Origin: Candidatus Omnitrophota bacterium
GTDB taxonomy: Bacteria > Omnitrophota > Gorgyraeia > Gygaellales > Profunditerraquicolaceae
Reading direction: 5' to 3'
Assembly: GCA_028712375.1 (NCBI GenBank)
Contig: JAQTQG010000015.1
Location: 1 to 33,719 of the forward strand
Length of the DNA: 33,719 bases
Part shown: piece by piece, positions 1 to 29,130 of the stretch
Layout: every line of letters starts with the position of its first letter
How positions within the stretch are numbered: the stretch's first letter is position 1
Position numbers and translations under genes: made by a program
The notes under the pieces: generated by a model
Databases searched by the model: none
What the model saw: the letters and a program-made list of their open reading frames with translations, nothing else
What the model was told of the DNA's origin: nothing

Positions 1-3000
1 ATATTCCAGGTGGTAGAATTGGTATTGGCAATACCGGATTTAATATTAATCCAGTCGCTGCCGTTATTGCGGGAATAATCAACACTGACATTCTGCACCA
101 CGCCGGTAGTCGTCCAGGCAATCGTCTCGCCGGTTGTCCCCACCACCCACTCATCGGTGCTGATCGGGTCGGTAATCACCATATTCGCCCGCACTTCAAA
201 GAGGCTGGAGGTTAATGTCGCCACCGCGTTATTCGGGTCAAAAACTTTAACTAAACAGCTGGAAGCCGGATCCGGCAGGCCCGAAGTCGGGGCAGTCCAG
301 GAATAACTTCCGGTGTTAGAGATAAGATAAGGTTCCACAGGATTAAGATCCGCCCAGGTTTCCCCGTTATTGGAAGAGAACTGTATGCGGACATTGGCGA
401 TTCCGCTACCAGTAGTCGACCATCTGACATTATAAGCGCTACCGGACTGTAAAACATTCACCGGATTATTCCCCTGGTCTTCTACTCTTAAATTGGTAAA
501 GCCGCCTCTAATCTTAAAGACCGCGGATTCGCCGAACTCTACCGTCGGATTGCTGGAAGAAGCGATCTTAACCTGTACGCTACCGGATACGCTGTCGGGA
601 ATACTCGGCCAGTTCCAGGAACCTGCCCCACCGGTACCGATGGATACGCCTGAGGCAATTGAAGTATAGCTGCCTGCGCCGTATTTATACAGGATATCGG
701 CGGTACCCATGCTACCTTTATATAGCCAGGTAATATTTTTATCAGTTGAACCCACTAACCAGTTCTGGTTGACATCCGGCTGTTGTATGGTGAATGAACC
801 GATGATGTTAAAACTTTCGCTGGTCCCGTAGACATTCGGATTGCCGTTATCTACAACCCTGACCTTGACATCACCGCTAATGGCATCCGGGATATTATTC
901 CAGGTATAAGGCACAGTGGCATCAACCGTGCCGGAATCGTCAATGACATTGGTGAATTCACCGCCGTCTTTGGAATAATAGAGTTTTACATACTGCACCT
1001 TGGTCGAACCATTCAGGCTCCAGGAAATGGTGTTAGAACTAGAGCCAACAGCTAAACTTTGGTCCAAAACCGGGACAGATACCGATATCTTAGGCCGGAT
1101 AGAAAACGGCGCCGCCGATACGCCAAAAACATCCGGATACCTTAAAGGATCGGCGTCCGAAACACGAATATAGCAGGTCTCCGAGTTTTCGTCGGCAACC
1201 GAAGTCCAGGTATAGCTATTAGCCCCCGGCAGGTGCCCGCCATGATCAGCAACCACCGTATTTAAAGCTCCGGTAAGAGTAGTTTTATATTCAATCTTTA
1301 CATTACTAATTGTCCCGTATTCATACCAGCTGATCTCTTTAGAATCCCCCTTATACCAAATTTGGCCGCCATTAGGGACAATATCAGTAATTGCGCCCAA
1401 TATCTTTATGGCATTGGTACAAACCGCCACTACATTCGGATCATCTGAATGGCTTATCCTTATCTTTACATTGTTGCCGACTGCATCGGGAATTTCCCAA
1501 TCAAACACTTTTTGCACATTATTAGCGGAATTAGCCACTTCCTGAATCAGATGCGTTTGTAACTCATCCGTAAAACCATTAGTAGAGTATTCCACCTTAA
1601 CCGGAGAATAAGTTCCCTGCGGAGTCCATTTTATCTGATGCGTTGAACCGACCGCCCATTTTAATCCGGATTCGATCGGCTCATCCATCACAATTTTACC
1701 CTCAATCTCAAAAGCATCGCTCTCTGCGAATACCTCTGTATTATTCACCTGCTCTATGCGCACCTTAGCCGCTTTAACATTATTCGTAATCGAATCCAGA
1801 GGCAAACTAAAACCGGCGTAAGGGCTGGAATTATAGGCAACAGTAGCTACCACAGACCCCCAAGGGGGATTACCGGTTTTGGAAAAATAGATGTTTACAT
1901 TTCCCATCGGAGCGGTACCCAAAGTAGTCCAGGCAATCGAGAAAGGATCGCTGATATGGCCTATGGTTGCAGTAGTTGGAGCGGAAATACTAATACCGCT
2001 TTTAACCATAAAACTCGAACTGAGGCCGTAAACCACACCGAAACCTGCATCTGATACTTTAATTTTGGCTTGCGCGGCAGATAATACATCCTGATTGGTA
2101 GGTATTGACCAAGCATACGGACTAAGCGCAGAACCCCGGGAAGCAACAATGTTATAAGCATAAAGGTCGGTTCCGTTATCCTTGGAATAATCAATGCGTA
2201 CATTATCCACGATACCGGTAACTCCCCAGGCGATATTATTACCGGTTGTGCCGATCGTCCACTTATCTCCGGTGGCAGGCGAAGAAACAGTAATCGCCGC
2301 GCGTATTTCAAAGACCGCAGATGTGGCCCGGGTAGCTTCTTCATTATTCGGATCAGATATTCTTAATTTACAAGTCTTAGAATTAGTCGTAACCGGCACG
2401 CTCCAGGAATATGTTCCGGTGTTATCGAATAATCCAGTACCTCCTCCAATATTAGTAAAAGTAATGCCGTCGGTAGAAAATTCTAACTTAACCTGGGGAA
2501 TATTTGTACCGGTCTTACTCCATTTCACCGGATAGGTCGAACCAGCAGGCAAAACTTCGCCATCTACCGGACCGGGATCATCAAAGGTAAATGAACCTTT
2601 AATCTTAAAAGCAACACTCTCATTAAATTCTTTACTCGGATTACCGACAGAAGAGATTTTTACTTTTACGTTATTGGATACTGAATCCGGAATAGACGGC
2701 GCCCAAGTCCAGCTCCCGGAGCCGCCCGTCCCCCTGGATACACCTGTAGCTATCGGATCACCGTAACCGGTGCCATAATCATAATAAATATTTATATTTG
2801 ATATACTTCCCGTATACAACCAGGTGATATTTTTATCAGTAGCTCCTACTGCCCAATTAGACGTATCATTAGGCTGTTGTATAGTTAATGAACCAATGAT
2901 ATTAAAAACAGGAGACAAGCCAAAGACATTGCTATTGCCGGTTCCTCCGGTTTTATCCACGACCTTAATTACCGCAGTACTGCTCAAATTATCCGGAACG

Positions 3001-3510
3001 CTGCTCCAGTTACATGTACCTAATGTCGCGTCAACACCGGTAAGAATTGTCTTATCAAACGGTCCGCTAATACCGTTTGTGCTAAAAAGCACATCCACAT
3101 TGGAGACTTTCGTAGAACCATTTAAACTCCATGCAATGGCATTATTATAAGTAGTGCCCACAACAAAATCCGCACCCAATAACGGTTTACTAACACTGAT
3201 TACCGGACGAACGGAAAAAGCGGCAGCGGATTCAATCGGTACAGCTAAATTATTATGATCACTAATTTTAATATAGCATTCTTCGCTATTGATATCCGGC
3301 ACAAGCGGCCAAATATACTGGTTACTACCGACAGTGTGGCCTGGATCATCAGTTACAATAACCCCGTCGTAGCTGCCGCTGGCGGAAGTTTTATATTTAA
3401 TATCCACATTGGTAATCGTACCGCTAGCCGTCCAGGAAATAATTTTACTGGTTTCATCCTTATACCAAATCTGGCCTCCATTGGGGCTCATCGCCGTGAA
3501 AGCGCCCTTG
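1..3510 (-). repeat. Higher-order duplication: five-domain block repeated about 2.1 kb apart
   Basis: Five successive domains starting near 3510 match, in order, the five starting near 1400. Shared signatures include GGQIWYK, W-S-L-N-G-S-T-K-V, SLTIQQP versus SFTIQQP with DKNITWLY, and IGTTGNNIAW versus VGTTGETIAW. The offset is close to 2.1 kb, about seven domain lengths. The copies have diverged, but conserved order argues for a multi-domain block duplication. Confidence 0.7.
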
Positions 3511-6500
3511 ATGGTAAAAGGATTATCGCTGGAGTCACTCACCGGCAAACCGCCGACACTAGTCAGGCGCAGATAAACGGTATTACGGATAAAATCCGGA
3601 ACTTCCCAGGGGAATGGCACTGTCGCCGACGGCCAACCCGGATGCGCAGTATGCAGGTCCGTAGCAAACGTCGGATCCGTAGAATATTCAATTGCTAAAT
3701 TACCAATGGTGCCGGTTTTGTCCCAGGTTACATTAAAACTTTCGCCGACCGCCAAAGTATTATAACCATTGGGGTTAGTAAGTAAAATCGACCCTTTAAT
3801 ATAGTTATCCGCGGTAGTTTCTCCAAATACTTGCGCGTTGGTTTTATCTGAAACTTTAACTTTAGCGGCCGAAGTAATCGTATCCGGAACGGTCCAAGCG
3901 TAAGTAGTGGTTCCGGCGGGGAGAGCGCTTCCCTGGTCAATAATAGAATGCCACAAAGTTCCGTCGAAATAATCAATCACAAAGCCCGGGATATTACCGT
4001 TAAAAGTCCACTCCACAGTAAAGGGTTTACCCACCACCATCGTTTCGGCATTCATCGGGTGAACCATAAAAATACTCCCGATAATCCCATTTTCACCGCT
4101 AGAGACAGCAATTACATCATTAGCATTAGCTTTTTCATAAATACGCACCTTGGTTGTTGGGCTCGGGTCATTTGGAATCGTCCAATCAAATTCAGTAGTT
4201 ACCCCGGATGCCCCGGCATTAACGTCTTCTGCGCCCAAAACATTCTTCCATTCCGCATGCTCGGAATCAGTAGAATATTCTATTTTACATTTACCGAAGG
4301 TGCCGGTGGGAATCCACTTAATTAAATAATGGTTAAAGATCGGCATATTTACGTTGGCAATCGGCTGAACCAGCTGCAAAGAACCCATGATCGAAAACTG
4401 CTGCGAATCGCTTTTTACGGAACTATCGCCTACCTTGGATATCCTTACCACTGTATCGCCGTTAGCGCTATCCGGTATAGTCCAGCCGTATCTTAAAGCG
4501 GTAGGATCCAAATTATCAGCAATCGGCGGGGTCTCCCAAGTAGATCCTGCATCCAGCGAATATTCAATCTTTATCTTATCCACCTTGCCTTTAGGAGCCA
4601 GCCATTCGATATCTGAACTTGACTCAATGCGGAATTTAGAAGTTGCATCCGGCTTGGTGATTGTCAAAACCGGCTTAATTTTAAAATCATTGGTACTTGT
4701 TCCATATACGGTAGGCTCGGTGGAATCACTCACCCGGATGCGGCAGGCATCAGAAGTAACTAAAACATACTGGCCGGAAGGGATTGTCCAAGTATAAGGA
4801 TGCGCGTTAGCATTACGTCCGGTAATAATTTCAATAGGATATCCTCCGGTTCCGCTTAAGGTATCCAAATAAATATCAACATTGGCAATCGTGCCGGTAA
4901 AACTCCAATCAATATTATTTGATATGCCGTCTACTGTCCAGGTTTCCGGGGAACCCGGATTTTTACCCGGAGTAACCAGAGTGACTGTGCCGTGAACCGA
5001 GAAATCTGCGATCGAAGCATCATGGACATAAGTCGCATCGGAAGCCTGCACAATCTTTACCCTGTATTTATTACTCGTAGTGTTGGGAACCGGCCAGGAA
5101 TAATGACAAACATGATTGCCATCTTCATTATTATTATAAGGCCTGGTAATAATGAAATTAGGATAGTTATCATTACCGCTATTAGTATCATAATATAAAC
5201 TGATATTGCCCAAAGTACCGGTATATTTCCATTGGATATCAATCGGATCCCCGCCGACATGATAGGGGGCGCTATTATTAGGAGATCCATCCGGGTCAGG
5301 CGCTACGTCCAGCGACCCCTTAATCTGAAAAACTTCGGATTCATCATTAACATCACTGTCACCTTCCGCGACTACCTTAATTTTATTATCCACGTTCAAG
5401 TCTACAGCATCCGGGACTGTCCAAGCATAGTTCGGAAGCGCAGAATCAACTCCGGTAGCAAAAGCCGCTCCGTAAGTTACCCCGTCAGGGGCAAAAGAAA
5501 AAGCTAATGTACCAATTGCGCCTAATCTGGTCCAGGTGATCAGGTGGCTGGAACCGACAATTAAAGCCGTAGCATTTTGATTAGAATTATTCGGGCTGGT
5601 AATAGTAACCGCCCCCTTAACTTCAAAAGTATTTTCGGAGGTAAGATTGATATCATTAGGAAAAGCGTTGCTTTCCACTCGGATACGCAATTGATCACTG
5701 ATCGGACAGTTTACCGGATCCCACAAATAACCCTCAAAATTTGAAGTATTGGTTACGATTGTCCCGCTGGATCCGCCGTCAATGCTATATTTCACATTAA
5801 CCGTCGGCACTTCACCCTGGGTAATCCAGGTAATATTACGCTGCTCTCCCAGGCGCCAGACCTGCCCGCCATTAGGGACCAAAGTAATAAGGCGGGATAC
5901 CATGGTTAGAGGTTGCGCGGAAATAGAATAAATCTCTGAATCCGAGCTGCTTACCACTTTAATTTTTATTTGGGTATTCTTGCCGTTATCTCCGGTTTTA
6001 AAAGGAGCGCTATTAATAGGTAAGGTCCAAACGTAGGAACCATTGCCGGTGCCTGCCGAAATAGTACTGGAATTATCAATGATATTAATAAACAGGTCAT
6101 TGCCATTATCTTTGGAATAAAATAAATTCACTGTCCCCAATTGCCCGGTGACATTCCAACTGATCTGTTCTTGAGTACCGCAAGACCAGGATAACCCTGT
6201 GTCACCGGAATTAGTCGATGGGCGGGTAAGAGTAATTGTCCCGCGAACGATAAAATCGTTTTCGCTGACCGAGAAAACTTCATTTTCTTTTCCGGTTTGA
6301 TAAACTTTAACGCGCGTTTTTAATCCCACAATCCCGGCCACATCCGGTATCGGCCAGTCATATCCGCCTAAGCTGGCATTAATACCGTTAGCGATAAACC
6401 CCTGATAACCATCGGCACCGCTATTGCCATCCCAACGCAGCCCTACCGTTCCAAAAGTGTTGGGATTAGCCGTCCAGGTGATATTTAAAGTCTCACCGAC

Positions 6501-8230
6501 AAATTTACTAATACCGGTAGCAGAAGGATAATTTATTTTAAGGTAAGGAATTACTTTAAAAACTGCGGAAGCGCCGGCAGTCCCGGTTACCATATCTTCA
6601 TCACCATCCAAAGCGACCTTGATTTTCGCTGTATCGCTTCTGTGCTCCGGCAAGATCGTCCATTCGTAAGTCCTGGGGGTAGCGATATTAACTACTCCTT
6701 CGGTTAAAAGTACCGGCCAAGTACTTCCGCCGTCTAAAGAAAGCCGGATATCGGCGGTACCGGCGAAGGTCCCGAAATTAGTCCAGGTAATGACTTTAGT
6801 ATTTTGCTCCACAGCATCAGTAACCTTTAAGATTTCGTTAAGATGCGGCTCATTAACGGTAATTGTCCCTTTAATGCTAATCGGGCTGTTAGATTCCGCA
6901 TAAATATTTTCATTATCTTTATTGCAGACGCGGATTAAAACGTTATTCATGCCTAAATCATTAGGCACCGTCCAGTTAAATACCTGCATAACCTCCGGAG
7001 TGCCGGCGGCAAGGTTGTTTTCCGGCCGGGCGTTTTCGCAATAGTTCCAGGAACCGGCACCGACTTTATATTTAATTACCACATAATTCATTGTCCCGTG
7101 CACGGTCCACTTAATAGGCTTGACTTCATTATAACGCCAGATCTCTCCTCCGATAGGTTCATTCACGGTAAGAGAAGCCATCATATGAAAATCCGCGCTT
7201 ACCCCGTAAACCGTCGGATCGCTGGAGTTAACTACTTTAATTTTGGAAGTCGGGTTTGAGCCATTAACCGAAAGAGGAATATCCCAGTTCCAGGAACCGC
7301 CGGAGGCATCCGTCCCCGCGGAAATATCATTAGCAATAGGAAGCTCTCCGTAAGTAAAACCGGCGTTGCTTGAATAATATATGTCCACCGTGCCGTCGCT
7401 TGCGCCTCCCCCCAATAATCCTTTCTTTGACCAAGAAATCGTCTTAGTGTCTCCGGACAACCAAGTCTCGTCACTGGTGGGAGAAACATTATAAATATTG
7501 CCTTTTAAAGTAAAATTACTGGTTGCGCTTTCTACTAATCCGGCGTCCCCGTAATTAAGAATAATTTTCAATTTATTTTGCGTGCCGATTAAATTTTCGC
7601 CGCTTAGGCTCGACGGAATACCTGCCCAACTCCAGCTGTTTCCGCTTGAACCGTCATTACCGGGGACAGCCGTAGCCGTTAAGGTATGCGCAAAATTAGT
7701 TCCGTCAGTAGATAATTTGATTGTGGCGTTTGCCGGAGTAAGCCCGTTTAGGTTTCCATTCGTGGCCCAGGTGATATCGTGTGTTTCTCCGATTAACCAG
7801 GTATTGGGAGGCTGAACAATAGTAAATTTTCCCCTGATCGAAAAATTTCCGTCTGATGTATCATAAAACCGGGTCGGAGCCCCCGCATCTTTATCAGAAT
7901 CAATAACCCGCACCTTCAGCTGATTACCCACTAAATTGCTGGAAGAGCCGTAGCTAGCAGGCACAGTCCATTCCCAGCGCCCTTCATTATTCACGCTGGA
8001 ATTATTATTAACATCCAAACCGGTGACTAACGGCAGAACCAACCAACTTGATCCGCCGTCTACGGAAAGCTCAATCCTTACTCTATGCACTCCATCAGTC
8101 CCCGTACCAAGCATACTCATGGAATCAGCATACTTCCAAACAATATCATGCTTATCACTTACCGCCCAGCTTTCGCCGCCGTTTGGAGATATAACGGAAA
8201 TTGGGGACAGCTCGGTCAACGCCCAATTAA
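1..8230 (-). repeat. Array of about 27 Kre9/KNH-like domain repeats
   Basis: Within the giant gene a roughly 270-315 bp unit recurs about 27 times, the last one cut by the window edge. Each unit encodes an opening V-x-x-P strand, a W-x-V-G turn, an I-x-W strand, a G-T-I/V-x-N-V-x-I-x-Y-S strand pair, a Y-x-W-x-V/I-P motif and a closing S-x-x-F-x-I-x-G. The units are diverged in protein sequence and vary in length, so this is an old protein-domain expansion and not a DNA satellite or CRISPR. The count comes from reading the translation by eye and could be off by one or two. Confidence 0.85.
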
Positions 8231-10385
8231 GCGTTACATTGCCGGTAGTAGTGGTGTTAAGGCGGGATATGCTAAAAGTACTCACAACATCCGTATCGCG
8301 GCAGGTATCCTCAAGTTCCCATTTTCCCGCGGTAGCATTATATCCATATTTTAAGACCGTCCCCAAATAGGCGCTGGCTACCCATACTTTATCCAGGTCA
8401 TTATCATACGCGATACCATATGGAGCCGCATCAGTAACCAATGAATCAATAACTTCTCCGGTTTCCGGGTCAATAACGTCAACGACATTGGAGCCTTCGC
8501 AAACAACAAACATCTTGTTGCGGGTAGTATCCCAGGCCATCTGCCTGGGCATACGGTCGGTAGGCAATAGATCGGTAGTGGCATTGGTAGTAACTGAAGA
8601 ACGCGCATTATTCATATATGCCCTGCGCACATAGTTGCCGGTAGAAGAGTTAGTAATAGCAGATACCGCCCAAAGAGTATCTTGTGTCATGCCGCCCACG
8701 CCTACAGTCGGCGCATAATTTATCATGGCATAATATTGATTTGTAGAGCCAAAATCCGGGTTTAATGAACGATTGCCGTCCGAACAGCGGAATCTATAAA
8801 TATTATCATCCAATTCAGTAATCACCCACATATAGTCTGTAGCGTCACTTGGCGTAGGGTCATAACATATTCCGGTACCCCTACCTTGCGACCCATTATA
8901 GTTGGTTACAGTATACGGACTAGCGCTCATTAACTTTGAGGTAACCGGATAAGGAGTAGCTCCAGTGTAGTAATTTGCTGTCCAGGCGCAATTAGTACTG
9001 GGATCCCAGGCAATATCCCTGGGCTGTTGTCCCACATTATAGGTACGCACAAATGCCCCGGTTGAAGCATTTAAACAAGTAACAGTGTTAGCAGAATAAT
9101 TGGCAACCCAGATATAACCGCCTCCTGAACATACGGCAATCGGGCCGGTACCGGTATTATAAGAGCCAATCTTGGCCCCGGTAGCCGAATTATATTTAGT
9201 AATAGTATTAGCGGCATAGTTGGTTACCCATACCGATTTAGGAGTAGTAGATGCATCATAACAAACTCCCTTTACGCTTAAGCTGGCAAAATTCGGAGCA
9301 AAGCGTATCTCATCATCATATGTAGAAAGAGTCGTATCTGTCGGGCCGGATGCCCCGATAAGCGGGAACATACGCAAAGGGTCAACTGCCGGGTTCAATG
9401 TCGGATCTGCCGGGCCGGCCGAACCGGTAGCGATGGCAATATCATTTGTTGAACGCACGCTGGTGCCCTGATCGGTCATTTCCACCACAAACCATTCTAT
9501 AACAATATCAGAGTTGGCAACAGCTGCTGCGCGGTCGAATTTTACTTGAGAAGCATTAAGAATCTTCCCCCGCACAGCATCATAGGCCTCTCTACCGGCA
9601 ACACCTACCTTTGACCTATAGCTAAAAATCAAAAATGCATGGTCTAAATTAGTAATATCGGGATCAGCATGGCCAGGATTTATATTTTCTGTTTTCGTAG
9701 TATCGGTCGCCGCAAAAACCGTTTCTCCGGCGGTCACCACCGCTCCATCCGTAAATTCCACTACCTGCCACACTACATTTACTGTCCTGGCGTAAACCGT
9801 GGTGCCATACTGCGTAGAATCACGCTGAAGATGCAGCGTACTTTTATTCGGAATGTCAGCGCTGATTTGGGCAATCTGGTCGCAATCATTCCTGGCAAAA
9901 TTCGCCCGGGCCTGAACAATCGCAAACGCCTGATAATCATCTGCCATATCCGAAGTAAGTGTAATGGTTTTTTGGGTATACGCCGGATTGGTAACCGCGC
10001 CCGGGGAAAAAGCACTTATCCCGCGCTGGACATTTACTCCTGAAGCAAACTCCACAACCACGTAAGTTACATTACTGGCAACATTGGCATAATCACGGGA
10101 AATGATTAACTTGCTATCGGATTCAAAAACTGCAGTGAACAACACATTGCCAACATAATTACTGGTGTTCGCCGCCGGGCTCGGATAAAGCAATACCATT
10201 GTTTTAGATTGATTAACCGATTGGATATCGACTACCTGCGAAATATCGTCTGTGTCGAAATAAACTGAACCGATTTGCGACCTTTTAACTTGAGCCGCCT
10301 GCGCTTGGCTAACTAAAAAAAGAATAGACACCAAGGCTAAAACTAAATGAATTTTTCTAAAATTTTTAATAAAATTAAACCACAT
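1..10385 (-). CDS. Giant secreted repeat protein (Kre9/KNH-like domain array), 3' end outside window
   Basis: One uninterrupted reading frame runs from an ATG at 10385 to the left edge, giving at least 3461 residues with no stop seen. Residues 1-30 are a signal peptide ending in AQA. Residues about 31-345 hold three related ~90-residue units, each with a VVEF/VVEM motif. Residues about 350-690 look like a YVTN/NHL-type beta-propeller with recurring VWVTNY and IWVANY motifs. From residue about 715 on, about 27 beta-sandwich repeats of 85-105 residues follow the pattern PNGGE-W-G-I-W...YS-DGG-W...W-VP...VRV. This resembles the Kre9/KNH domain often found in extracellular bacterial proteins. The ATG directly follows the stop of the upstream gene, with AGAGG about 10 bases before it, so translation is probably coupled. 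A surface or released adhesin or matrix protein is likely; no catalytic domain is visible. The C-terminal anchor or sorting signal lies outside the window. Confidence 0.9.
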   Translation of the reverse strand, partial: MWFNFIKNFRKIHLVLALVSILFLVSQAQAAQVKRSQIGSVYFDTDDISQVVDIQSVNQSKTMVLLYPSPAANTSNYVGNVLFTAVFESDSKLIISRDYANVASNVTYVVVEFASGVNVQRGISAFSPGAVTNPAYTQKTITLTSDMADDYQAFAIVQARANFARNDCDQIAQISADIPNKSTLHLQRDSTQYGTTVYARTVNVVWQVVEFTDGAVVTAGETVFAATDTTKTENINPGHADPDITNLDHAFLIFSYRSKVGVAGREAYDAVRGKILNASQVKFDRAAAVANSDIVIEWFVVEMTDQGTSVRSTNDIAIATGSAGPADPTLNPAVDPLRMFPLIGASGPTDTTLSTYDDEIRFAPNFASLSVKGVCYDASTTPKSVWVTNYAANTITKYNSATGAKIGSYNTGTGPIAVCSGGGYIWVANYSANTVTCLNASTGAFVRTYNVGQQPRDIAWDPSTNCAWTANYYTGATPYPVTSKLMSASPYTVTNYNGSQGRGTGICYDPTPSDATDYMWVITELDDNIYRFRCSDGNRSLNPDFGSTNQYYAMINYAPTVGVGGMTQDTLWAVSAITNSSTGNYVRRAYMNNARSSVTTNATTDLLPTDRMPRQMAWDTTRNKMFVVCEGSNVVDVIDPETGEVIDSLVTDAAPYGIAYDNDLDKVWVASAYLGTVLKYGYNATAGKWELEDTCRDTDVVSTFSISRLNTTTTGNVTLNWALTELSPISVISPNGGESWAVSDKHDIVWKYADSMSMLGTGTDGVHRVRIELSVDGGSSWLVLPLVTGLDVNNNSSVNNEGRWEWTVPASYGSSSNLVGNQLKVRVIDSDKDAGAPTRFYDTSDGNFSIRGKFTIVQPPNTWLIGETHDITWATNGNLNGLTPANATIKLSTDGTNFAHTLTATAVPGNDGSSGNSWSWAGIPSSLSGENLIGTQNKLKIILNYGDAGLVESATSNFTLKGNIYNVSPTSDETWLSGDTKTISWSKKGLLGGGASDGTVDIYYSSNAGFTYGELPIANDISAGTDASGGSWNWDIPLSVNGSNPTSKIKVVNSSDPTVYGVSADFHMMASLTVNEPIGGEIWRYNEVKPIKWTVHGTMNYVVIKYKVGAGSWNYCENARPENNLAAGTPEVMQVFNWTVPNDLGMNNVLIRVCNKDNENIYAESNSPISIKGTITVNEPHLNEILKVTDAVEQNTKVITWTNFGTFAGTADIRLSLDGGSTWPVLLTEGVVNIATPRTYEWTILPEHRSDTAKIKVALDGDEDMVTGTAGASAVFKVIPYLKINYPSATGISKFVGETLNITWTANPNTFGTVGLRWDGNSGADGYQGFIANGINASLGGYDWPIPDVAGIVGLKTRVKVYQTGKENEVFSVSENDFIVRGTITLTRPSTNSGDTGLSWSCGTQEQISWNVTGQLGTVNLFYSKDNGNDLFINIIDNSSTISAGTGNGSYVWTLPINSAPFKTGDNGKNTQIKIKVVSSSDSEIYSISAQPLTMVSRLITLVPNGGQVWRLGEQRNITWITQGEVPTVNVKYSIDGGSSGTIVTNTSNFEGYLWDPVNCPISDQLRIRVESNAFPNDINLTSENTFEVKGAVTITSPNNSNQNATALIVGSSHLITWTRLGAIGTLAFSFAPDGVTYGAAFATGVDSALPNYAWTVPDAVDLNVDNKIKVVAEGDSDVNDESEVFQIKGSLDVAPDPDGSPNNSAPYHVGGDPIDIQWKYTGTLGNISLYYDTNSGNDNYPNFIITRPYNNNEDGNHVCHYSWPVPNTTSNKYRVKIVQASDATYVHDASIADFSVHGTVTLVTPGKNPGSPETWTVDGISNNIDWSFTGTIANVDIYLDTLSGTGGYPIEIITGRNANAHPYTWTIPSGQYVLVTSDACRIRVSDSTEPTVYGTSTNDFKIKPVLTITKPDATSKFRIESSSDIEWLAPKGKVDKIKIEYSLDAGSTWETPPIADNLDPTALRYGWTIPDSANGDTVVRISKVGDSSVKSDSQQFSIMGSLQLVQPIANVNMPIFNHYLIKWIPTGTFGKCKIEYSTDSEHAEWKNVLGAEDVNAGASGVTTEFDWTIPNDPSPTTKVRIYEKANANDVIAVSSGENGIIGSIFMVHPMNAETMVVGKPFTVEWTFNGNIPGFVIDYFDGTLWHSIIDQGSALPAGTTTYAWTVPDTITSAAKVKVSDKTNAQVFGETTADNYIKGSILLTNPNGYNTLAVGESFNVTWDKTGTIGNLAIEYSTDPTFATDLHTAHPGWPSATVPFPWEVPDFIRNTVYLRLTSVGGLPVSDSSDNPFTIKGAFTAMSPNGGQIWYKDETSKIISWTASGTITNVDIKYKTSASGSYDGVIVTDDPGHTVGSNQYIWPLVPDINSEECYIKISDHNNLAVPIESAAAFSVRPVISVSKPLLGADFVVGTTYNNAIAWSLNGSTKVSNVDVLFSTNGISGPFDKTILTGVDATLGTCNWSSVPDNLSSTAVIKVVDKTGGTGNSNVFGLSPVFNIIGSLTIQQPNDTSNWAVGATDKNITWLYTGSISNINIYYDYGTGYGDPIATGVSRGTGGSGSWTWAPSIPDSVSNNVKVKISSVGNPSKEFNESVAFKIKGSFTFDDPGPVDGEVLPAGSTYPVKWSKTGTNIPQVKLEFSTDGITFTNIGGGTGLFDNTGTYSWSVPVTTNSKTCKLRISDPNNEEATRATSAVFEIRAAITVSSPATGDKWTIGTTGNNIAWGVTGIVDNVRIDYSKDNGTDLYAYNIVASRGSALSPYAWSIPTNQDVLSAAQAKIKVSDAGFGVVYGLSSSFMVKSGISISAPTTATIGHISDPFSIAWTTLGTAPMGNVNIYFSKTGNPPWGSVVATVAYNSSPYAGFSLPLDSITNNVKAAKVRIEQVNNTEVFAESDAFEIEGKIVMDEPIESGLKWAVGSTHQIKWTPQGTYSPVKVEYSTNGFTDELQTHLIQEVANSANNVQKVFDWEIPDAVGNNVKIRISHSDDPNVVAVCTNAIKILGAITDIVPNGGQIWYKGDSKEISWYEYGTISNVKIEYKTTLTGALNTVVADHGGHLPGANSYTWTSVADENSETCYIRVSDADPLRYPDVFGVSAAPFSIRPKISVSVPVLDQSLAVGSSSNTISWSLNGSTKVQYVKLYYSKDGGEFTNVIDDSGTVDATVPYTWNNIPDAISGDVKVRVVDNGNPNVYGTSESFNIIGSFTIQQPDVNQNWLVGSTDKNITWLYKGSMGTADILYKYGAGSYTSIASGVSIGTGGAGSWNWPSIPDSVSGSVQVKIASSSNPTVEFGESAVFKIRGGFTNLRVEDQGNNPVNVLQSGSAYNVRWSTTGSGIANVRIQFSSNNGETWADLNPVEPYLISNTGSYSWTAPTSGLPDPASSCLVKVFDPNNAVATLTSSLFEVRANMVITDPISTDEWVVGTTGETIAWTTTGVVQNVSVDYSRNNGSDWINIKSGIANTNSTTWN

Positions 10386-10868
10386 TTATTTTTTAACCTC
10401 TTTTTCTATCAGCTTAACTGCTGCAGCCTCAACCGTCGCCATCTCGTCAAAAAATTGCTGCTCTTTCGGCGCAGGGTTCATGAACCTGACCACTTTGGCC
10501 ACTCTAGCCAAAACCCTGGCCTTATTTTTCTTCTCAGCTCCCACCGTATCCTGAAAAACTTCGGTTATTTCTGCATATTTTACCCAAACTCCCTCTTGAG
10601 GAAGAATTTCCTTCAAGCTTTTTTTACGCTCTACTTTGGTATCTTTATCAATCGCCAAAGCCATTTCATAAGAAGTTTTTTTATCCAAACCGTAATTAAT
10701 AGCAATAAAATTGGGGCTGATCGCTACTACATTACCTTCTACAATTTTCTCCTGGGTTACTTTTTTAGGCTTATTAAGCTCGGGAACTTCTACCGCTATC
10801 CCGGCGCCTTTTACACCTAAAACTAAAAACAGAACCAACCCAAGTTTCATTATTCTTAAGCCCGCCAT
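10386..10868 (-). CDS. Small secreted protein of unknown function (possible DUF5666-like OB fold), middle gene of the riboswitch operon
   Basis: This predicted 160-residue protein starts at the ATG at 10868, which has GGAGGG seven bases upstream; a TTG 15 bases further up has no such site. The ATG shares one base with the stop of the transposase-fusion gene (TAATG). The stop at 10386-10388 directly abuts the ATG of the giant gene. Residues about 5-25 form a hydrophobic export signal. The mature part begins K-I-V-E-G-N-V-V-A-I and contains D-T-K-V and V-W-V-K-Y, a pattern like small OB-fold/DUF5666-type domains, followed by a charged helical tail. I do not recognise a specific family. A periplasmic helper, chaperone or anchor for the giant protein is possible from gene order alone. 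Confidence 0.8.
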   Translation of the reverse strand: MAGLRIMKLGLVLFLVLGVKGAGIAVEVPELNKPKKVTQEKIVEGNVVAISPNFIAINYGLDKKTSYEMALAIDKDTKVERKKSLKEILPQEGVWVKYAEITEVFQDTVGAEKKNKARVLARVAKVVRFMNPAPKEQQFFDEMATVEAAAVKLIEKEVKK

Positions 10869-12136
10869 TATTGTTCCCTCCAATACTGGCCGTTAAATGT
10901 AAAATCCTGCACCGCCAAGCCTTCTTTGCGCAAACTTAAAACCCCCTTCATCCTGCCATCCTGGCTGATATCTGCCCGCCATAACGCGATTCCTTCGGCA
11001 GAAGCCTGCATGGTTTCCCAGATAATTTTTCCGTGCTCTGCGTTTCTTAAAGAATAATTGGAGGAGGTAAATTTTTTAGTACTTAATTTTGCGGAGGTGA
11101 ATTTTTTCTGTGAAAAAGTTAAGGTGTCGGTTTCCTGCGCGCCTCCGGAAGCCGGCGTAAGGTTAATCTGCCAGGTAGTGCCTTCTAAAACATCCTGTAT
11201 TTTTGGCGCAGAACGAGTGGCCGGCAAAACAGTTGCTTCTGTTTTTTTAGCAACCGCAACTACATCCTGATTAAAAAAAGCCGGCTTATTTTCTCTCACT
11301 ACGACCTTTGGCCTTTCTTTCAGAACAACTGCCTTATTTGCTCTAAGGGCAACTTTGGCCACTAGGGTTAACCCCAACCCAACCAGTGCTACCACCAAAA
11401 CCGTATTACCAACTTTTAAACCCGGCCTCTTTACCGGCCCCTCGTTTTCTTCTTCTGCCTTTTCTTCCTTACGCCCTTCTTTATTGGCAAATTCAGCCTT
11501 AATGCGGTTTCGGAATTCCACCCCGCCCAATACTCCTTTTTTCTGCAAATCATTATGTAAACCCAAATCCCCTTCCTTAATTAGCTCCTGCATAAACTGT
11601 TCATAGGATTTTTGCCCCAACAATCCTAAAACAATATTTTTCTCTTCCCGCAGAAATTGCTGTAAAGGCATTTCTTTGTTTATGTAGAGCCTATAACTGC
11701 TATAAGGATAGTCTTTAGCGGAAAGAACCAGATTAGTTTTTTGCGGGTTCAAATGAATGTAAGCGGTAAGTTTTAAAAGATAAGGGTCCTTTTCAATTAA
11801 AGCGGTTTTAAACCTATCCCGGAAAAGGTGGCCTTTCCTACCGTATTTCCCATTAAAATATTTAGTATAAGAAGAATTAAGCCCATGCATAATCTCTGAA
11901 ATACCACCTTTAGAACCTTCTTCACTTTGACCCGGCAGTTCCAGCAATAAATGAAAATGGCTGGGAAGAAGCACATAAGCATATAATTTGAATTTATATT
12001 GTTCTTTGTATTTTTTTAGTAATTCAAAATACGCGTTGTAATCTGATTCTTCTTTAAATATATCCTGATTATAAATACAGCGGCTGGTTATGTAATATAG
12101 GGCATCTTCTAATAGAATTCTCGGCGGCCTTGGCAT
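10868..12136 (-). CDS. Y1/RAYT-type transposase domain fused to a transmembrane segment and an extracytoplasmic domain
   Basis: This 422-residue protein is a fusion. Residues 1 to about 150 are a typical IS200/REP-associated tyrosine transposase (Y1_Tnp): an N-terminal P-R strand, the HUH motif at H60-F61-H62 in LPSHFHLLL, and the A-Y-I-H-L-N-P motif with candidate nucleophile Tyr126. Stand-alone proteins of this family usually end near 200-250 residues. Here a charged linker (about 205-240) leads into one membrane helix (about 244-262), a second linker, and a C-terminal domain (about 317-422). That domain is clearly related to the secreted protein at 14535-15146 (shared WETMQ, W-R-D-I, G-V-L-S-R, DF-F). 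The catalytic motifs are intact, so nicking activity cannot be excluded. The topology suggests a cytoplasmic DNA-binding domain tethered to an envelope domain. It is the first gene after a cyclic-di-GMP riboswitch. Confidence 0.88.
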   Translation of the reverse strand: MPRPPRILLEDALYYITSRCIYNQDIFKEESDYNAYFELLKKYKEQYKFKLYAYVLLPSHFHLLLELPGQSEEGSKGGISEIMHGLNSSYTKYFNGKYGRKGHLFRDRFKTALIEKDPYLLKLTAYIHLNPQKTNLVLSAKDYPYSSYRLYINKEMPLQQFLREEKNIVLGLLGQKSYEQFMQELIKEGDLGLHNDLQKKGVLGGVEFRNRIKAEFANKEGRKEEKAEEENEGPVKRPGLKVGNTVLVVALVGLGLTLVAKVALRANKAVVLKERPKVVVRENKPAFFNQDVVAVAKKTEATVLPATRSAPKIQDVLEGTTWQINLTPASGGAQETDTLTFSQKKFTSAKLSTKKFTSSNYSLRNAEHGKIIWETMQASAEGIALWRADISQDGRMKGVLSLRKEGLAVQDFTFNGQYWREQ

Positions 12137-12150: not shown

Positions 12151-12180
12151 TACCTGGCACTTTTAATTTGTGCCTGACAC
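12151..12180 (-). repeat. GGCAC/GTGCC inverted repeat in the leader of the RAYT fusion
   Basis: Perfect 5-bp arms, GGCAC at 12156-12160 and GTGCC at 12170-12174, flank a 9-bp AT-rich loop. The outer flanks read GTGTCAGGCAC on the minus strand. The element sits between the riboswitch terminator and the transposase start codon. Short palindromes like this are the usual DNA partners of RAYT proteins, so it may be the protein's own recognition site. That link is an inference. Confidence 0.5.
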
Positions 12181-12195
12181 TTTTTCCAATTTCAC

Positions 12196-12225
12196 AAAAA
12201 AAACCAGCCATATTCCTTGGCTGGT
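12196..12225 (-). terminator. Intrinsic terminator of the cyclic-di-GMP riboswitch
   Basis: On the minus strand ACCAGCCA (12225-12218) pairs perfectly with TGGCTGGT (12210-12203) around a 7-base loop and runs into eight T residues. It lies about 30 bases after the aptamer and about 60 bases before the first start codon of the operon, the layout of a transcription-attenuating riboswitch. Confidence 0.85.
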
Positions 12226-12255
12226 ATTAGTTAGCTGCTTGAACTCATTATTTCT

Positions 12256-12322
12256 AGCAACCTGCCAATCCTTAATCCCAGGATGCACGGCTTTGCGTCC
12301 CCCGATTGCTCGAGGTTTGCCC
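12256..12322 (-). ncRNA. Cyclic-di-GMP-I (GEMM-I) riboswitch aptamer
   Basis: Read on the minus strand, the element contains the hallmark GGGCAAACC, a stem CCUCGA/UCGGGG closed by a GCAA (GNRA) tetraloop, and the invariant GGGACGCAAAGCC. A short second hairpin (AUCCU/AGGAU) follows, then GGCAGGUUGC, which closes the outer stem with the 5' GGCAA. The middle G of AGGGCAAAC, which in the Vc2 aptamer helps set cyclic-di-GMP over cGAMP preference, is kept. The aptamer is followed by an intrinsic terminator and then the RAYT-fusion, small secreted protein and giant protein genes. Whether ligand turns the operon on or off cannot be read with confidence from the sequence. Confidence 0.88.
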
Positions 12323-12350
12323 TTCGAATTCTTTTCTTTATCTGATAGAA

Positions 12351-14534: not shown

Positions 14535-15146
14535 TTACTGGCTAACCGGAATAGAAGACGGCTCTTCCGCTACTGCCGCAGCAGACTCTACTGAAGCCGG
14601 AGCAGATTCTACTACTGGAGCCGGAGCAGGCGCTACCGCAACCTTATTTGATTCCAAACTATAAAAATTAAAATCTGAAACTTTATTTTTCTTATCCCGT
14701 ATGCTTAAAACTCCCCGCATTATTCCATCGCCGCCTATATCGCCGCGCCAGAAAGCCGCGCCATCTTTCTCCGAAACCTGCATCGTTTCCCAGGTATACG
14801 TTTCGCCATCTTCTAATAAGCGCATGGAAAAATTAGTGGCCTCAAACCCCCTGGCCCCCATATTCTTAGAACTCACTTTGCCATCCATAAAGGCTATCGT
14901 ATCTTTTTCCATCTTGCCTTTACCGGACATTGCTTTAACCTCAATGTTCCACTGCGTACCATTAAGTTCTATTTTTTTCTTAGCGATCATATCCTGCGTT
15001 TTACCGGTTTGTTTTTTCGTAACAACAGTAGTAACCGGAGCGGCTGTTTTCCCCGCTTCTTCTTTAGCAAACCATTCCGCAAAAACAGAACTTGAATTCA
15101 TCGCTAAAAACCCTAAAGCCAATAGCACCAAAAACAGTTTCTTCAT
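14535..15146 (-). CDS. Secreted protein carrying the same domain as the RAYT-fusion C-terminus
   Basis: The start is the ATG at 15146, which has GGAGGG just upstream; an ATG 12 bases earlier overlaps that site and is unlikely. The 203-residue product has a signal peptide (1-23, ending V-F-A), a basic linker, one domain (about 60-163) and a Pro/Ala-rich tail. The domain aligns along its length with residues 317-422 of the transposase fusion at 10868-12136: G-T-x-W-x-I, D-T-x-x-F, N-F/Y-S-x-R, WETMQ, A-x-W-R-x-D-I, D-G-x-M-x-G-V-L-S-x-R, V-x-D-F-x-F. I do not recognise a named family. It lies in the secretin operon, so a periplasmic or surface location is likely. Confidence 0.8.
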   Translation of the reverse strand: MKKLFLVLLALGFLAMNSSSVFAEWFAKEEAGKTAAPVTTVVTKKQTGKTQDMIAKKKIELNGTQWNIEVKAMSGKGKMEKDTIAFMDGKVSSKNMGARGFEATNFSMRLLEDGETYTWETMQVSEKDGAAFWRGDIGGDGIMRGVLSIRDKKNKVSDFNFYSLESNKVAVAPAPAPVVESAPASVESAAAVAEEPSSIPVSQ

Positions 15147-15226
15147 TTTACCCTCCATTTGTTATCGACCAGATTTACCGTGCTGCCTGTATTATTATTT
15201 ACAACCCCGCCACTCCACCTTTGTAT

Positions 15227-16261
15227 TTATTGCACCCTCTGCTTACCATCATAGGCTTCCCAGGTAAGTAAATATTTCTTTACCCAGTCTATATCCTTAT
15301 CGTCGCCTTTGGCCAAACTTAAATAGTACCTAAAATGCTTGCTGGCCTTCTGGCGGTTAACCAGGTATTCCGCATAAATATACCCTAAATTAAAATGCGC
15401 ATAAGCGTGGTTAGGATCAATCTCCACTACTTTTTCAAATTCTATCGCTGCGCGGTCATACTGCTTATTTTTAGAATAAAAAATCCCCAGGTTATAATGC
15501 ATCTGCGCAGTTTCCGATATTAATAACTTATTCTGACGGGCAAGTTCCGCAATTTTCTTAGGCACATTTTGCACCTCTTCCCACATCATTTTATTTTTCT
15601 TTACTGCTTCAGCTAAACTTTGTTTAAGATCCTTTATTTGTAATTTCAATGCGGCATTCTCCAGCTCTAATTTGGTTTTCTGCTGCTTGGCCTGGTCGAA
15701 TTCGCTTTCCTTGCGCTTGGCGCTATTCTGTATAGCATTTTTTTCTTTTTGTAAATCTCCAAACCTTTTATTTAAATCCTTAATCTTAACGGTAGTTTCT
15801 GCCTTATCGCAGGATACTTTAAGCGTATTCCATTTTGCAATCAAATCTTTTTGAGCCAACAGCAGCCGGCTAATCTCATTTTTTTGGTTAAGGGTATTAT
15901 CCTGCAATTCCTTTTTTTCTTTAGTTAATAAAGCTAATTCACTGCTGGCCCTCTCTAAAGCCGACCCCAACTCAGCAACTTTAGTCCTCTCCGGCAGAAG
16001 AGTTTTGATTTGTACCATAAGATTCTCCCGGTCAGCCTTAACCGCTTCATTGTCCTTAAGCAGCTGGGCATTTTCATTTTTTAAAGCAACAGCTTCCTGG
16101 CTCAATTTTTGATAACCCGGATTAATATCCTCCAGCTGTTTAGATAAATTTTGTAATTTCCTATTTAAATTCTTCGATTTATTAACAAGAAATAGAAAGC
16201 CGACACAGACAGTGAAAATCACTACACCCACAATGATTGTCTTTAATTTTAGTTTACTCAT
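15227..16261 (-). CDS. Membrane-anchored coiled-coil protein with C-terminal TPR repeats
   Basis: The ATG at 16261 follows AAAGGAG by nine bases and overlaps the secretin stop by eight bases, so it is preferred over an upstream in-frame start inside the secretin gene. The 344-residue product has an N-terminal membrane helix (about 7-25), then about 200 residues of K/E/L/Q-rich coiled coil. About two TPR units follow (A-Q-M-H-Y-N-L-G-I-F-Y; A-Y-A-H-F-N-L-G-Y-I-Y-A-E-Y) and a tail containing W-V-K-K-Y. This layout suits a periplasm-spanning scaffold. Direct overlap with the secretin gene suggests it assembles with the secretin, as pilotins and secretin-associated TPR proteins do. No specific family name can be given. 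Confidence 0.82.
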   Translation of the reverse strand: MSKLKLKTIIVGVVIFTVCVGFLFLVNKSKNLNRKLQNLSKQLEDINPGYQKLSQEAVALKNENAQLLKDNEAVKADRENLMVQIKTLLPERTKVAELGSALERASSELALLTKEKKELQDNTLNQKNEISRLLLAQKDLIAKWNTLKVSCDKAETTVKIKDLNKRFGDLQKEKNAIQNSAKRKESEFDQAKQQKTKLELENAALKLQIKDLKQSLAEAVKKNKMMWEEVQNVPKKIAELARQNKLLISETAQMHYNLGIFYSKNKQYDRAAIEFEKVVEIDPNHAYAHFNLGYIYAEYLVNRQKASKHFRYYLSLAKGDDKDIDWVKKYLLTWEAYDGKQRVQ

Positions 16262-18236
16262 TACTTGCGTCTCCTTTAAGCGTAGGCTTATATTCTTCTT
16301 CTTGTTTAAAGACGGGATATTCACGATAAGATTTAATTTCCTCTTCCGGGGCGCCTTTAGGCTCTACCTTTTTCTCCCGGGCAGGCGCATCTTTAAAATC
16401 CGGCTTTTCCGTAAAAGGCGCGTAAACTCCATACTCTTTATTGGGCTCATCCATAAACCTCGGCTCGCGCCTGTCTCCGGTAGTCAATACATCCCCGGCT
16501 GTAATATGCGGCGTGATCATTACTAAAAGCTCTGTTTTTTCAACCTTATTTGTCTTGTTTTTAAAGAAAAAACTTAATATAGGAATTTTGCTGAGGAGCG
16601 GAAATTCTTCGGAAGCTGAAGTTTTATCTTCCCGGCGCAGCCCTCCGATGATAATGGTCGAGCCATCTTTAACCATTACGGTAGTTTCTGACATAGAAGT
16701 ATCAATAATGGGAATTTTGTTTCCGCTGGGAGTATCCAGAAAAGAAACTACGCTGGAAATCTCGGGCTTTATTTTCATTGTCACATACCCGTCGTCATTT
16801 ATCGTTGGAGTCACAGACAACTGGATACCCACGTCCACAAAGGTTACCTCTTCTGAAACCGTGGAAGTACTTTGTCCGGTAGTCGTAGTCGAAGTAACGT
16901 AAGCCTGGCGTTCACCCACATGGATTTTAGCTTCCTGATTATTCACGATAGAGATCTTCGGATTAGAAAGAATCTGCGTATTGCCTAAAGTCTGAACATA
17001 CTTGAGCACAACATTAACATCCTTATCGTCGGATATTATACCCAGATTCAATATTCCCGGGCCGGTTTTGGAGGTAGAGGATGCGGAGCTGGCAGTATTG
17101 CTGGTAGAAGCGTATGAACCAATCTGGTTATTCATCGTATTTACTAAATAATCATACCTGGACTGATATGTGTTGGTAGTATCCATATCTGTAGGCCTTA
17201 TCACACTAAAAGGGTTAGCTCCCAAATAAGTCATTCCGTATTTGCTGGCTGCTCCCAGCAAACCTTCCCATTCCGCCCCGGTCTCCAATTGGTCGGATAA
17301 CTTAACTTTAATGATCGTACTGTCAATTAATACCTGTTTTGTTTTCTGGTCAAGGCTGGCAATCATTTTTTCGATATTTACCATTCTTTCAGGCAAGGTC
17401 TGGATAATTACCTGATTAGAACGCTCATCTGCTTTAATCGTACCGACTTTCTTTAAATCCAACTGGGATTTCAGGTGCTCTTCCACATCCTTGGCTTTCG
17501 CGTATTTTAACTGAAAAACTCTCACCAGGTTTCTTTGTTCAAGGGTGGATAATGCTTTCTCGATCTCTGCGATTTTATCCGGGGTATCCATAATTAAAGC
17601 GGTGCCGGAATCAGGTTCCACCAAAACCCTGCCAATTTCACTCTTTAAAGCATCCAGCAGCGTAAACACCTGTTCAGGAATAGCATATTTAATCCTAAAA
17701 ACTTTAACTTCACGGATATCCGCGAATCTCTTGCCAAAAAGAGTTTTATATTCATCCCCGGTCATCACATTGTAAATCTCGCCTTCTTTTGTATACGCCA
17801 GGCCGTTTGAACGCAGCATAATATCAAACACATCTTTAGCCGGGACATCCAACACCATTAAAGTAACCCTGCCGGAAACATCTTTTGTGGAAATCATATT
17901 AATTCCTGTTTTTAGCGATAAGAATTTTAAGGCATCCGTAACTTCAATGTTACGCAAATCCAAAGAAATCCTTCCGGACATCCCAACAGCTACAGGTTCA
18001 ACTACCTCCTTAACCTGCGGTTTCGCAGGCGCCTGTTGAGGCGTTGCTGCCGGCATTGTTGCGGCGGCAGCTGCTTGAGCCGGCACCAAAGGTGCCGAGA
18101 CTGCCTGTTGCGAAACAACAGGCGAAGAAACAGACCCTTGGGCTAAAGCCACCGGGCGGTCTTCTGCTTGGGCTTTATAAAGAAAGAAAGTGCCGCCCAG
18201 GATAATTAAAATAAATATTCTTTGCATAATTTTCAC
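16254..18236 (-). CDS. Secretin (GspD/PilQ family outer-membrane channel)
   Basis: This 660-residue protein has a signal peptide (about 1-24) and an Ala/Pro/Gln-rich linker. An N0/STN domain follows (about 83-165, S-L-D-L-R-N-I-E-V-T-D-A-L), then N1 and N2 domains with R-I-K-Y-A and Q-L-K-Y-A motifs. The secretin core (about 300-590) contains V-G-E-R-Q-A-Y-V, V-D-V-G-I-Q-L-S-V-T-P, I-I-I-G-G-L and L-S-K-I-P-I-L-S-F-F-F. Such proteins form the ring through which type II secretion or type IV pilus substrates cross the outer membrane. The start is probably the GTG at 18236, which overlaps the upstream stop as GTGA; an ATG at 18227 is the alternative. The acidic/Pro-rich C-terminal extension (about 600-660) may bind a partner. 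Assignment to type II versus type IV pilus machinery cannot be settled here. Confidence 0.95.
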   Translation of the reverse strand: MKIMQRIFILIILGGTFFLYKAQAEDRPVALAQGSVSSPVVSQQAVSAPLVPAQAAAAATMPAATPQQAPAKPQVKEVVEPVAVGMSGRISLDLRNIEVTDALKFLSLKTGINMISTKDVSGRVTLMVLDVPAKDVFDIMLRSNGLAYTKEGEIYNVMTGDEYKTLFGKRFADIREVKVFRIKYAIPEQVFTLLDALKSEIGRVLVEPDSGTALIMDTPDKIAEIEKALSTLEQRNLVRVFQLKYAKAKDVEEHLKSQLDLKKVGTIKADERSNQVIIQTLPERMVNIEKMIASLDQKTKQVLIDSTIIKVKLSDQLETGAEWEGLLGAASKYGMTYLGANPFSVIRPTDMDTTNTYQSRYDYLVNTMNNQIGSYASTSNTASSASSTSKTGPGILNLGIISDDKDVNVVLKYVQTLGNTQILSNPKISIVNNQEAKIHVGERQAYVTSTTTTGQSTSTVSEEVTFVDVGIQLSVTPTINDDGYVTMKIKPEISSVVSFLDTPSGNKIPIIDTSMSETTVMVKDGSTIIIGGLRREDKTSASEEFPLLSKIPILSFFFKNKTNKVEKTELLVMITPHITAGDVLTTGDRREPRFMDEPNKEYGVYAPFTEKPDFKDAPAREKKVEPKGAPEEEIKSYREYPVFKQEEEYKPTLKGDASNE

Positions 18237-18907
18237 TTGAGCTCAAACTCCTCGTTATCTAAGCTTAATATGATCTTATCCTTAAAGATTGCCTGCACCC
18301 TCGCATCCCCGACCATATCTCCTCTTTTTACAAAAAATGTTTTAAGCGCCTTGGTGTCTTCCACCATTGCATCCGGGTCATTAGACCAGGAAATACCGAC
18401 TAATTTCAGGCTTGCCGCCAACTCCAGATTCTTTGAAGAAGGAGCGGTGCTTGCGGCGGCGGCTTTCTTCGCCCCCATGGTAAAAATATCCCTCTCTCTG
18501 ACCTTTTCTAAATAATAAGAAGCGGCCTTCTTTAATCCTACGGGCTCAGGAAAACTTGTTTCCATTTTAGCCGCCAGAGTATTATTTGATTCTAAACTTG
18601 GCGTTTTATTTATATTAAACAAGGAGACAATAAAGTTGGCCGAAAAATACGTTAACAGCAGTGCTACCAATAATCCTAAAATACGATTCACAGCTTTTAC
18701 ATCCAGCTGTTCCAGGCTGAAACCCTGAGACCATTTTTCAAGCCTTACCCGGAAAAATGAAATCCTTCCCAGCCAGGCCCCGAAACTCAACCAGCTCATT
18801 CCGTGGCGCCGGGATGATTGAGTATGCACTCCCGTTGAATTCATTTTGGAGGTCTCAATAATCTTTAAAAGCTGTTTTTCTGGAGTGAGAGATCTTTCCT
18901 GTGCCAT
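18233..18907 (-). CDS. GspC-like inner-membrane secretion protein
   Basis: This 224-residue protein has a cytoplasmic N-terminus, a single membrane helix (about 74-95), a periplasmic linker and a C-terminal beta domain (about 165-224). That domain reads L-K-L-V-G-I-S-W...K-R-G-D-M-V-G-D-A-R-V-Q-A-I, like the homology region of GspC/PulC, which touches the secretin N-domains. No PDZ domain is present, so it is shorter than classical GspC. It overlaps the upstream ATPase gene by 43 bases and the secretin gene by four (GTGA). The role is inferred from the C-terminal motif and gene order. Confidence 0.78.
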   Translation of the reverse strand: MAQERSLTPEKQLLKIIETSKMNSTGVHTQSSRRHGMSWLSFGAWLGRISFFRVRLEKWSQGFSLEQLDVKAVNRILGLLVALLLTYFSANFIVSLFNINKTPSLESNNTLAAKMETSFPEPVGLKKAASYYLEKVRERDIFTMGAKKAAAASTAPSSKNLELAASLKLVGISWSNDPDAMVEDTKALKTFFVKRGDMVGDARVQAIFKDKIILSLDNEEFELK

Positions 18908-19734
18908 CCGGATTCTATATCCTCATTAATTATTTCCTGGATTAAAAATGCGTCAATAACAAATTTATTTTTTAATACTAAATTTTTTAAAGCGCGATGG
19001 CAAAGCATCGTTATCCTTCTGGGGTAGCCTCTGGTATATTGATGTATTTCTTTAATCGCATCATCCAGAAATAAATGCATGCCGGCAGAGTAACCCGCCT
19101 GCTTCACCCGGAATTCAATCATCTCCCTGGTTTCTTCGATGTCCAGGGGGTTTAAGGTGTACTTAAAACTGATCCGGTCAAAAAAATTAGAGATATCCGT
19201 TATTTTAGCATGCAGCTCCAACTGCCCCAAAAGCACCAGTTGAATAAGCTTGAATTCATTAGTCTCATAATTTAACAGTACGCGTAAAACCTCTAAAGAT
19301 GATTCATTTAATTTCTGCGCTTCATCAATAATCAAGGTAACTGTTTTATTTTCGGTAACCCCTTTTTGAAACAAAAATCTTTCCAGGCCTTCCCGCAATG
19401 CGACAATCCCCACAGGAGTATCATTGCCGATTGTAATCTCAAAGTTCTTGGCTAAAGAAACAAGAAACGATTCTTCGCTTTCGAAAGAAGGATCCAGGAT
19501 TATATGAAAAACAAAATCCGGCCGGTCTTTTAATTCTTGAATTAATTTTCTGGAAAGAGTGGTCTTTCCTGTACCCACATCCCCCAGGATAACCGAAAGC
19601 CCTCTTTTAAGCCTGAGCTCAATTAGAATATTAGCCAAAGCCGATTCATGCTCTTTGGATAAATAAAAAAAGTCCGGATCAGGGCTGGTAGAGAAAGGCT
19701 CCTTTTCAAATCCTAAGACCTTGAAATAGCTCAT
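18865..19734 (-). CDS. GspA/ExeA-like AAA ATPase
   Basis: This 289-residue protein starts M-S-Y-F-K-V-L-G-F-E-K-E-P-F-S, the standard opening of GspA/ExeA-type ATPases. It has Walker A GDVGTGKTTL (51-60), Walker B LIIDEAQ (134-140), a sensor region with V-L-L-G-Q-L-E-L, and a G-Y-P-R-R-I motif near the end. Family members help assemble or place the secretin in the envelope, usually through a peptidoglycan-binding part. Here that part and the membrane helix are missing, so it is a short cytoplasmic version that may act through the neighbouring GspC-like membrane protein. AGGA lies upstream of the ATG. It is the first gene of the secretion operon. Confidence 0.9.
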   Translation of the reverse strand: MSYFKVLGFEKEPFSTSPDPDFFYLSKEHESALANILIELRLKRGLSVILGDVGTGKTTLSRKLIQELKDRPDFVFHIILDPSFESEESFLVSLAKNFEITIGNDTPVGIVALREGLERFLFQKGVTENKTVTLIIDEAQKLNESSLEVLRVLLNYETNEFKLIQLVLLGQLELHAKITDISNFFDRISFKYTLNPLDIEETREMIEFRVKQAGYSAGMHLFLDDAIKEIHQYTRGYPRRITMLCHRALKNLVLKNKFVIDAFLIQEIINEDIESGWHRKDLSLQKNSF

Positions 19735-19764
19735 GTTTTAATCCTAATTTAGCCTGCTTAATCT

Positions 19765-19802
19765 ATATAAAAATTAAACCTGATCTCATTTAAGAAATCA
19801 GG
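19765..19802 (-). terminator. Intrinsic terminator after the MerR-like gene
   Basis: On the minus strand CCTGATTTC (19802-19794) pairs with GAGATCAGG (19787-19779) around a 6-base loop, followed by a T-rich run. It ends the MerR-like unit about 45 bases before the ATPase gene, so the secretion operon must have its own start nearby or depend on read-through. Confidence 0.75.
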
Positions 19803-19803
19803 C

Positions 19804-29057: not shown

Positions 29058-29084
29058 AGCATCCTCCTTAAAATGAGTTGTAAA

Positions 29085-29115: not shown

Positions 29116-29130
29116 ATCATTTCTCACTAT

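Follow-up and report, generated by a model that had tools for sequence, protein, structure and literature searches.

A RAYT-type transposase encoded in the analysed DNA, here termed RAYT-TM, is read by us, with a probability of roughly 0.55, as a domesticated, often non-catalytic transmembrane cis-regulator of its own giant-protein operon. The window, by which we mean the whole stretch analysed, comprises 33,719 nucleotides from a Candidatus Omnitrophota bacterium. The initial annotation had suggested a domesticated transposase acting as a regulator or DNA tether, and this suggestion gained support from a single origin, catalytic loss, purifying selection, operon position and a site in the gene's own leader, with DNA binding as the presumed activity. 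Beyond that first reading, the locus includes a c-di-GMP-class riboswitch, a giant-protein operon and a tail that copies a secretin-operon protein. Few domesticated transposases of bacteria have a plausible role in the cell, and the host function of RAYTs is an open question. The active site has been lost several times independently while everything else persisted, so that a role in site binding without catalysis can be tested directly. The locus also suggests a possible circuit by which the giant proteins of Omnitrophota, which are thought to mediate attachment to other cells, could be controlled.

Architecture of the membrane-tethered RAYT protein

The RAYT-TM gene and its parts were located as follows:
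10868..12136, minus strand: RAYT-TM gene, 422 aa; RAYT domain, helical extension, membrane helix, linker and beta-barrel
11681..12136, minus strand: RAYT (Y1/HUH) domain, residues 1-152 (Pfam Y1_Tnp; Foldseek 4er8)
11951-11959 and 11759-11761, minus strand: HUH residues 60-62 and Tyr126, respectively
11444..11680, minus strand: helical extension, residues 153-231 (AlphaFold)
11336..11413, minus strand: membrane helix, residues 242-267 (Kyte-Doolittle and AlphaFold helix)
10877..11203, minus strand: C-terminal calycin/lipocalin-like beta-barrel, residues 312-420 (AlphaFold), predicted to lie outside the membrane

The frame is genuine, running uninterrupted for 422 aa with no stop inside, and HUH (H60, H62) and Tyr126 are both intact in the window protein, as had been claimed. 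The Pfam Y1_Tnp match covered residues 14-128 with 41.5 bits (cut-off 23). Against the NCBIfam model REP_Tyr_transpos (NF047646) the window protein scored 74.8 bits, slightly below the cut-off of 80, and the same model was matched by 45 of 45 homologues. The best Foldseek match of the RAYT part was 4er8, the E. coli TnpAREP with a REP hairpin (TM 0.74 by target). A single strong membrane helix was detected by Kyte-Doolittle analysis (2.53 at residue 246) and as an AlphaFold helix at 242-267, in agreement with the helix first placed at 244-262, and it was found in all 45 aligned homologues. That such a tether is unusual for the family, as had been noted, was evident from the C-terminal Kyte-Doolittle helix scores, which were below 1.2 in ordinary RAYTs, these having no C-terminal helix, and above 1.6 in tethered RAYTs. 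Structure modelling, which had been proposed as a check, thus gave a TnpAREP-like N-terminal part in Foldseek, and in AlphaFold the membrane helix and a C-terminal eight-strand barrel (pLDDT 93.2). Within the helical extension, G204 and F208 were invariant across the 45 homologues, and the invariant residues of the RAYT-TM family lie mostly in the stretch 80-108, away from HUH and Tyr.

The proposal of an exported-type C-terminal domain is borne out by the confident barrel and by its match to the exported protein at 14535-15158 (40% identity across 131 aa). Of the topology first proposed, the membrane helix stood; as to sidedness, the charge bias fitted the positive-inside rule in 26/45 homologues and gave no clear signal. 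The tail is predicted to be extracytoplasmic from its exported paralogues. One chain would then combine a candidate DNA-binding domain, a single membrane helix and a predicted extracytoplasmic domain.

The stand-alone copy of the barrel lies beside a set of secretion genes:
14535..15158, minus strand: exported stand-alone copy of the barrel domain found in the RAYT-TM tail
15227..19734, minus strand: secretin module, adjoining the stand-alone barrel gene
15227-16324, minus strand: TPR/coiled-coil protein of the secretin module
16254-18236, minus strand: secretin
18233-18907, minus strand: GspC-like protein of the secretin module
18865-19734, minus strand: ExeA-like ATPase of the secretin module

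In the window, as in several relatives, the barrel paralogue adjoins the secretin module. Two forms of tail were recognised: the calycin-like barrel, present in most RAYT-TM proteins, and a coiled coil that bears a motif of the EKYRADMVSY type and has a stand-alone paralogue within the secretin gene cluster of a clade whose RAYT domains are catalytically dead. Across the family the type of tail varies more than the membrane helix does. The barrel domain could be assigned to no convincing Pfam or PDB family, and Foldseek returned weak barrel matches, none below 0.001. From the gene neighbourhoods, the tail may dock onto, or report on, secretin-associated machinery. The region 15227-20115 on the minus strand holds the secretin module genes together with a MerR-type regulator, and the module recurs in relatives.

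Family history and loss of catalytic residues

Homologues with the same architecture, for which a search in relatives had been proposed, are widespread across Omnitrophota, and a phylum-wide search placed the RAYT-TM family in several classes. Named relatives are Candidatus Omnitrophota metagenome-assembled genomes (MAGs), from which nearly all RAYT-TM data derive; one record labelled Planctomycetales groups among them. Two samples of tethered proteins were used (n = 46 and n = 18). In a tree with 46 ordinary RAYTs, the 46 tethered proteins of the first sample formed one clade with support 100/98.

HUH and/or the catalytic Tyr was replaced in 22/46 tethered proteins, and both were intact in the other 24, the window protein included. 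Parsimony required at least four changes of HUH and at least six of Tyr among the 46, and the well-supported branches by themselves force three changes of the dead/intact label. In the second sample HUH was lost in 9/18 proteins. The dN/dS was 0.107 between the window and one relative (G026) and 0.067-0.122 within one dead clade, in unsaturated or nearly unsaturated comparisons; synonymous sites near saturation make these values rough. Judged from these sequence comparisons, catalysis is dispensable in many RAYT-TM lineages. Several features speak for domestication: the tether arose once, catalysis was lost repeatedly, purifying selection is strong, the place in the operon is fixed, and the site is restricted to the gene's own leader. 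On the best reading of the comparison, a single capture in Omnitrophota was followed by domestication of the RAYT, which is now often non-catalytic.

The operon and its leader

The genes and leader elements around RAYT-TM were as follows:
12253..12331, minus strand: c-di-GMP-I riboswitch aptamer (RF01051; Rfam covariance model)
12203..12225, minus strand: stem-loop and subsequent T run of an intrinsic terminator, between the riboswitch and the RAYT-TM gene
12171..12183, minus strand: leader site 1, AAAGTGTCAGGCA, an exact copy of AAAGTGYCAGGYA
12151..12163, minus strand: leader site 2, AAAGTGCCAGGTA, an exact copy of AAAGTGYCAGGYA, 20 bp from site 1
10386..10868, minus strand: small exported protein, second gene, whose ATG shares one base with the stop codon of RAYT-TM
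1..10385, minus strand: giant exported surface protein with Ig-like domains, 3461 aa or more, as the contig ends within the gene

The order on the minus strand is therefore riboswitch, terminator, two leader sites, RAYT-TM, small exported protein and giant protein, and by this arrangement RAYT-TM is the first gene of a predicted operon ending in a giant exported protein. A giant ORF lay downstream of RAYT-TM in 33/34 loci, counting those with at least 3.4 kb of sequence. The aptamer scored 56.6 bits against a gathering score of 35 and is one of two c-di-GMP-I riboswitches in the genome. A riboswitch was found upstream of RAYT-TM in 35/46 loci of the first sample and 16/18 of the second, and beside none of eight ordinary RAYTs; none was detectable at 11/46 RAYT-TM loci. 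At one locus (L080) it lies one gene further upstream, and there an exported barrel gene stands between riboswitch and RAYT-TM (L080:1656-3830). Within the genus, two genomes (G020 and G021) keep the giant operon and are missing both RAYT-TM and the riboswitch. Because the GGC variant is the best-scoring model for some homologous aptamers, both c-di-GMP and related molecules are candidate ligands. Another locus carries tandem RAYT-TM genes (L072:5995-6918 and L072:8278-9207), each with its own c-di-GMP-I riboswitch.

The GGCAC/GTGCC leader repeat reported at first is real: the 13-bp site AAAGTGYCAGGYA occurs twice between the terminator and the RAYT-TM start codon, and these are the only two exact copies in this genome. 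Across 128 genomes of the order there were 42 exact sites, compared with two matches for a reversed control pattern. RAYT-TM leaders accounted for 30 of the 42, including two in a genome (G090) where the RAYT-TM gene is cut by a contig end; the remaining 12 were single and scattered, almost all inside unrelated genes. A leader site lay within 200 nt of 36/46 tethered genes and was also present at 16/18 loci of the second sample; some RAYT-TM genes have no detectable site. It preceded 0/47 ordinary RAYTs, the two matches counted there belonging to tethered or tether-like genes cut by contig ends. Most dead RAYT-TM proteins are still preceded by a leader site, and a dead clade of four carries a conserved palindromic variant, AAAGTACCACGTACTTT, in the leader. 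The site was found in sense orientation, and many 3' copies stand 23-32 nt before the start codon.

Dispersal in the manner of REPs was rejected, there being no dispersed copies in this genome or in the 128 genomes. Targets in trans were likewise considered and rejected: of the 14 sites lying outside known leaders, two belonged to the RAYT-TM gene cut by a contig end and 12 were single sites in or between unrelated genes. The leader site is thus unlike dispersed REPs, and its distribution points to a cis-acting role. The 27 site pairs of the first sample were mostly spaced 20-23 or 30-32 bp, with further values of 43, 53, 64 and 110, and showed helical phasing (R 0.82 at 10.5; p about 0.004 for distinct spacings). 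Spacings in the second sample were mixed (21, 43, 71 and 71). Spacing near whole helical turns would fit recognition as duplex DNA, and with this partial replication is only suggestive. RAYT genes of other lineages also bear leader motifs, so part of the link between site and gene is ancestral. In ordinary RAYT genes of Clostridia and Atribacterota (L087, L101 and L119), a different leader element, around GGGGACGGTTCT, occupies a similar place.

Proposed mechanism and alternative readings

In the mechanism we propose, the RAYT domain inside the cell would bind the leader sites, in the form of either duplex DNA or leader mRNA, and this binding would set the expression of all three genes of the operon (RAYT-TM, small exported protein, giant protein). 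As a copy of a small secretin-operon protein, the tail would sense the state of the envelope machinery, and the giant protein would be produced only if c-di-GMP and the envelope machinery both permit. We advance more tentatively, as somewhat short of an even chance, the full form of this proposal, an assembly checkpoint in which an HUH transposase has become a membrane receptor coupling giant-protein production to c-di-GMP and to the assembly state of the secretin machine, with catalysis abandoned repeatedly.

RAYT-TM resembles the REP-associated tyrosine transposases (RAYT/TnpAREP, with 4er8 from E. coli as the example) in its N-terminal fold, in HUH and Tyr when intact and in having a palindromic site beside the gene, but differs in its membrane helix, envelope tail, cis-only sites and frequent loss of catalytic residues. 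The extra domains described for known RAYTs are soluble, and their REPs are dispersed (PMC6006769, PMC8266576), and the word "membrane" is absent from the texts of both papers. By analogy, the predicted layout is that of ToxR/CadC-type one-component transmembrane regulators (PMC6320335), with a DNA-binding part inside, one membrane helix and a sensing part outside. RAYT-TM has no sequence relation to them, however, and carries a RAYT domain in place of their winged-helix DNA-binding domain, which is absent here (Pfam and Foldseek returned RAYT only). Adhesins controlled by c-di-GMP riboswitches (PMC4933901, PMC6200980) likewise have a c-di-GMP-I-type riboswitch ahead of a surface protein gene, whereas here it is a domesticated transposase that the riboswitch transcript encodes first. 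Giant surface proteins are known from the same phylum as giant ORFs (PMC10066038); the main text of that paper mentions neither c-di-GMP nor secretin nor transposase, so no control by these is reported there. A role of RAYT as an E. coli transcription factor was also looked for and set aside, the sole paper found naming rayT merely as a gene near a bound fragment.

A membrane tether without a regulatory effect is the alternative that fares best, though we consider it unlikely. The protein would hold its own locus or the long mRNA at the envelope, the giant protein would be made beside the secretion machinery, and the level of expression would need no change. The cis-only, sense-oriented site within the transcribed leader, with its many 3' copies close to the start codon, agrees with such a tether, as does a membrane helix more constant than the tail. 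With mRNA as the target, however, it sits poorly with the first-sample spacing near whole duplex turns; in other respects it overlaps with the regulator model, and sequence separates the two poorly.

It is less probable still that RAYT-TM is an active ssDNA-processing enzyme at its own locus, for instance rearranging or copying the leader repeats, and merely anchored in the membrane. TnpAREP is the nearest fold, and the full HUH/Tyr set kept by about half of the RAYT-TM proteins, the window's included, makes residual cleavage possible. Yet catalysis has been lost repeatedly while operon, tether, site and purifying selection were kept, and the genomes hold no dispersed site copies. An ordinary RAYT fused by chance insertion to a neighbouring exported gene, with no cellular role, would explain the paralogy between the tail and a gene close by, but is very improbable given the phylum-wide conservation, single clade, low dN/dS and fixed operon position. 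An assembly or annotation artefact fusing two genes, in favour of which no evidence emerged, can practically be dismissed, full-length homologues of identical architecture being present in tens of independent MAGs.

The window also contains a TPP riboswitch (RF00059, 68.7 bits) at 29116-29227 on the minus strand, immediately before the ORF at 28284-29120, which we take from its appearance to be a Thi4-type thiazole synthase.
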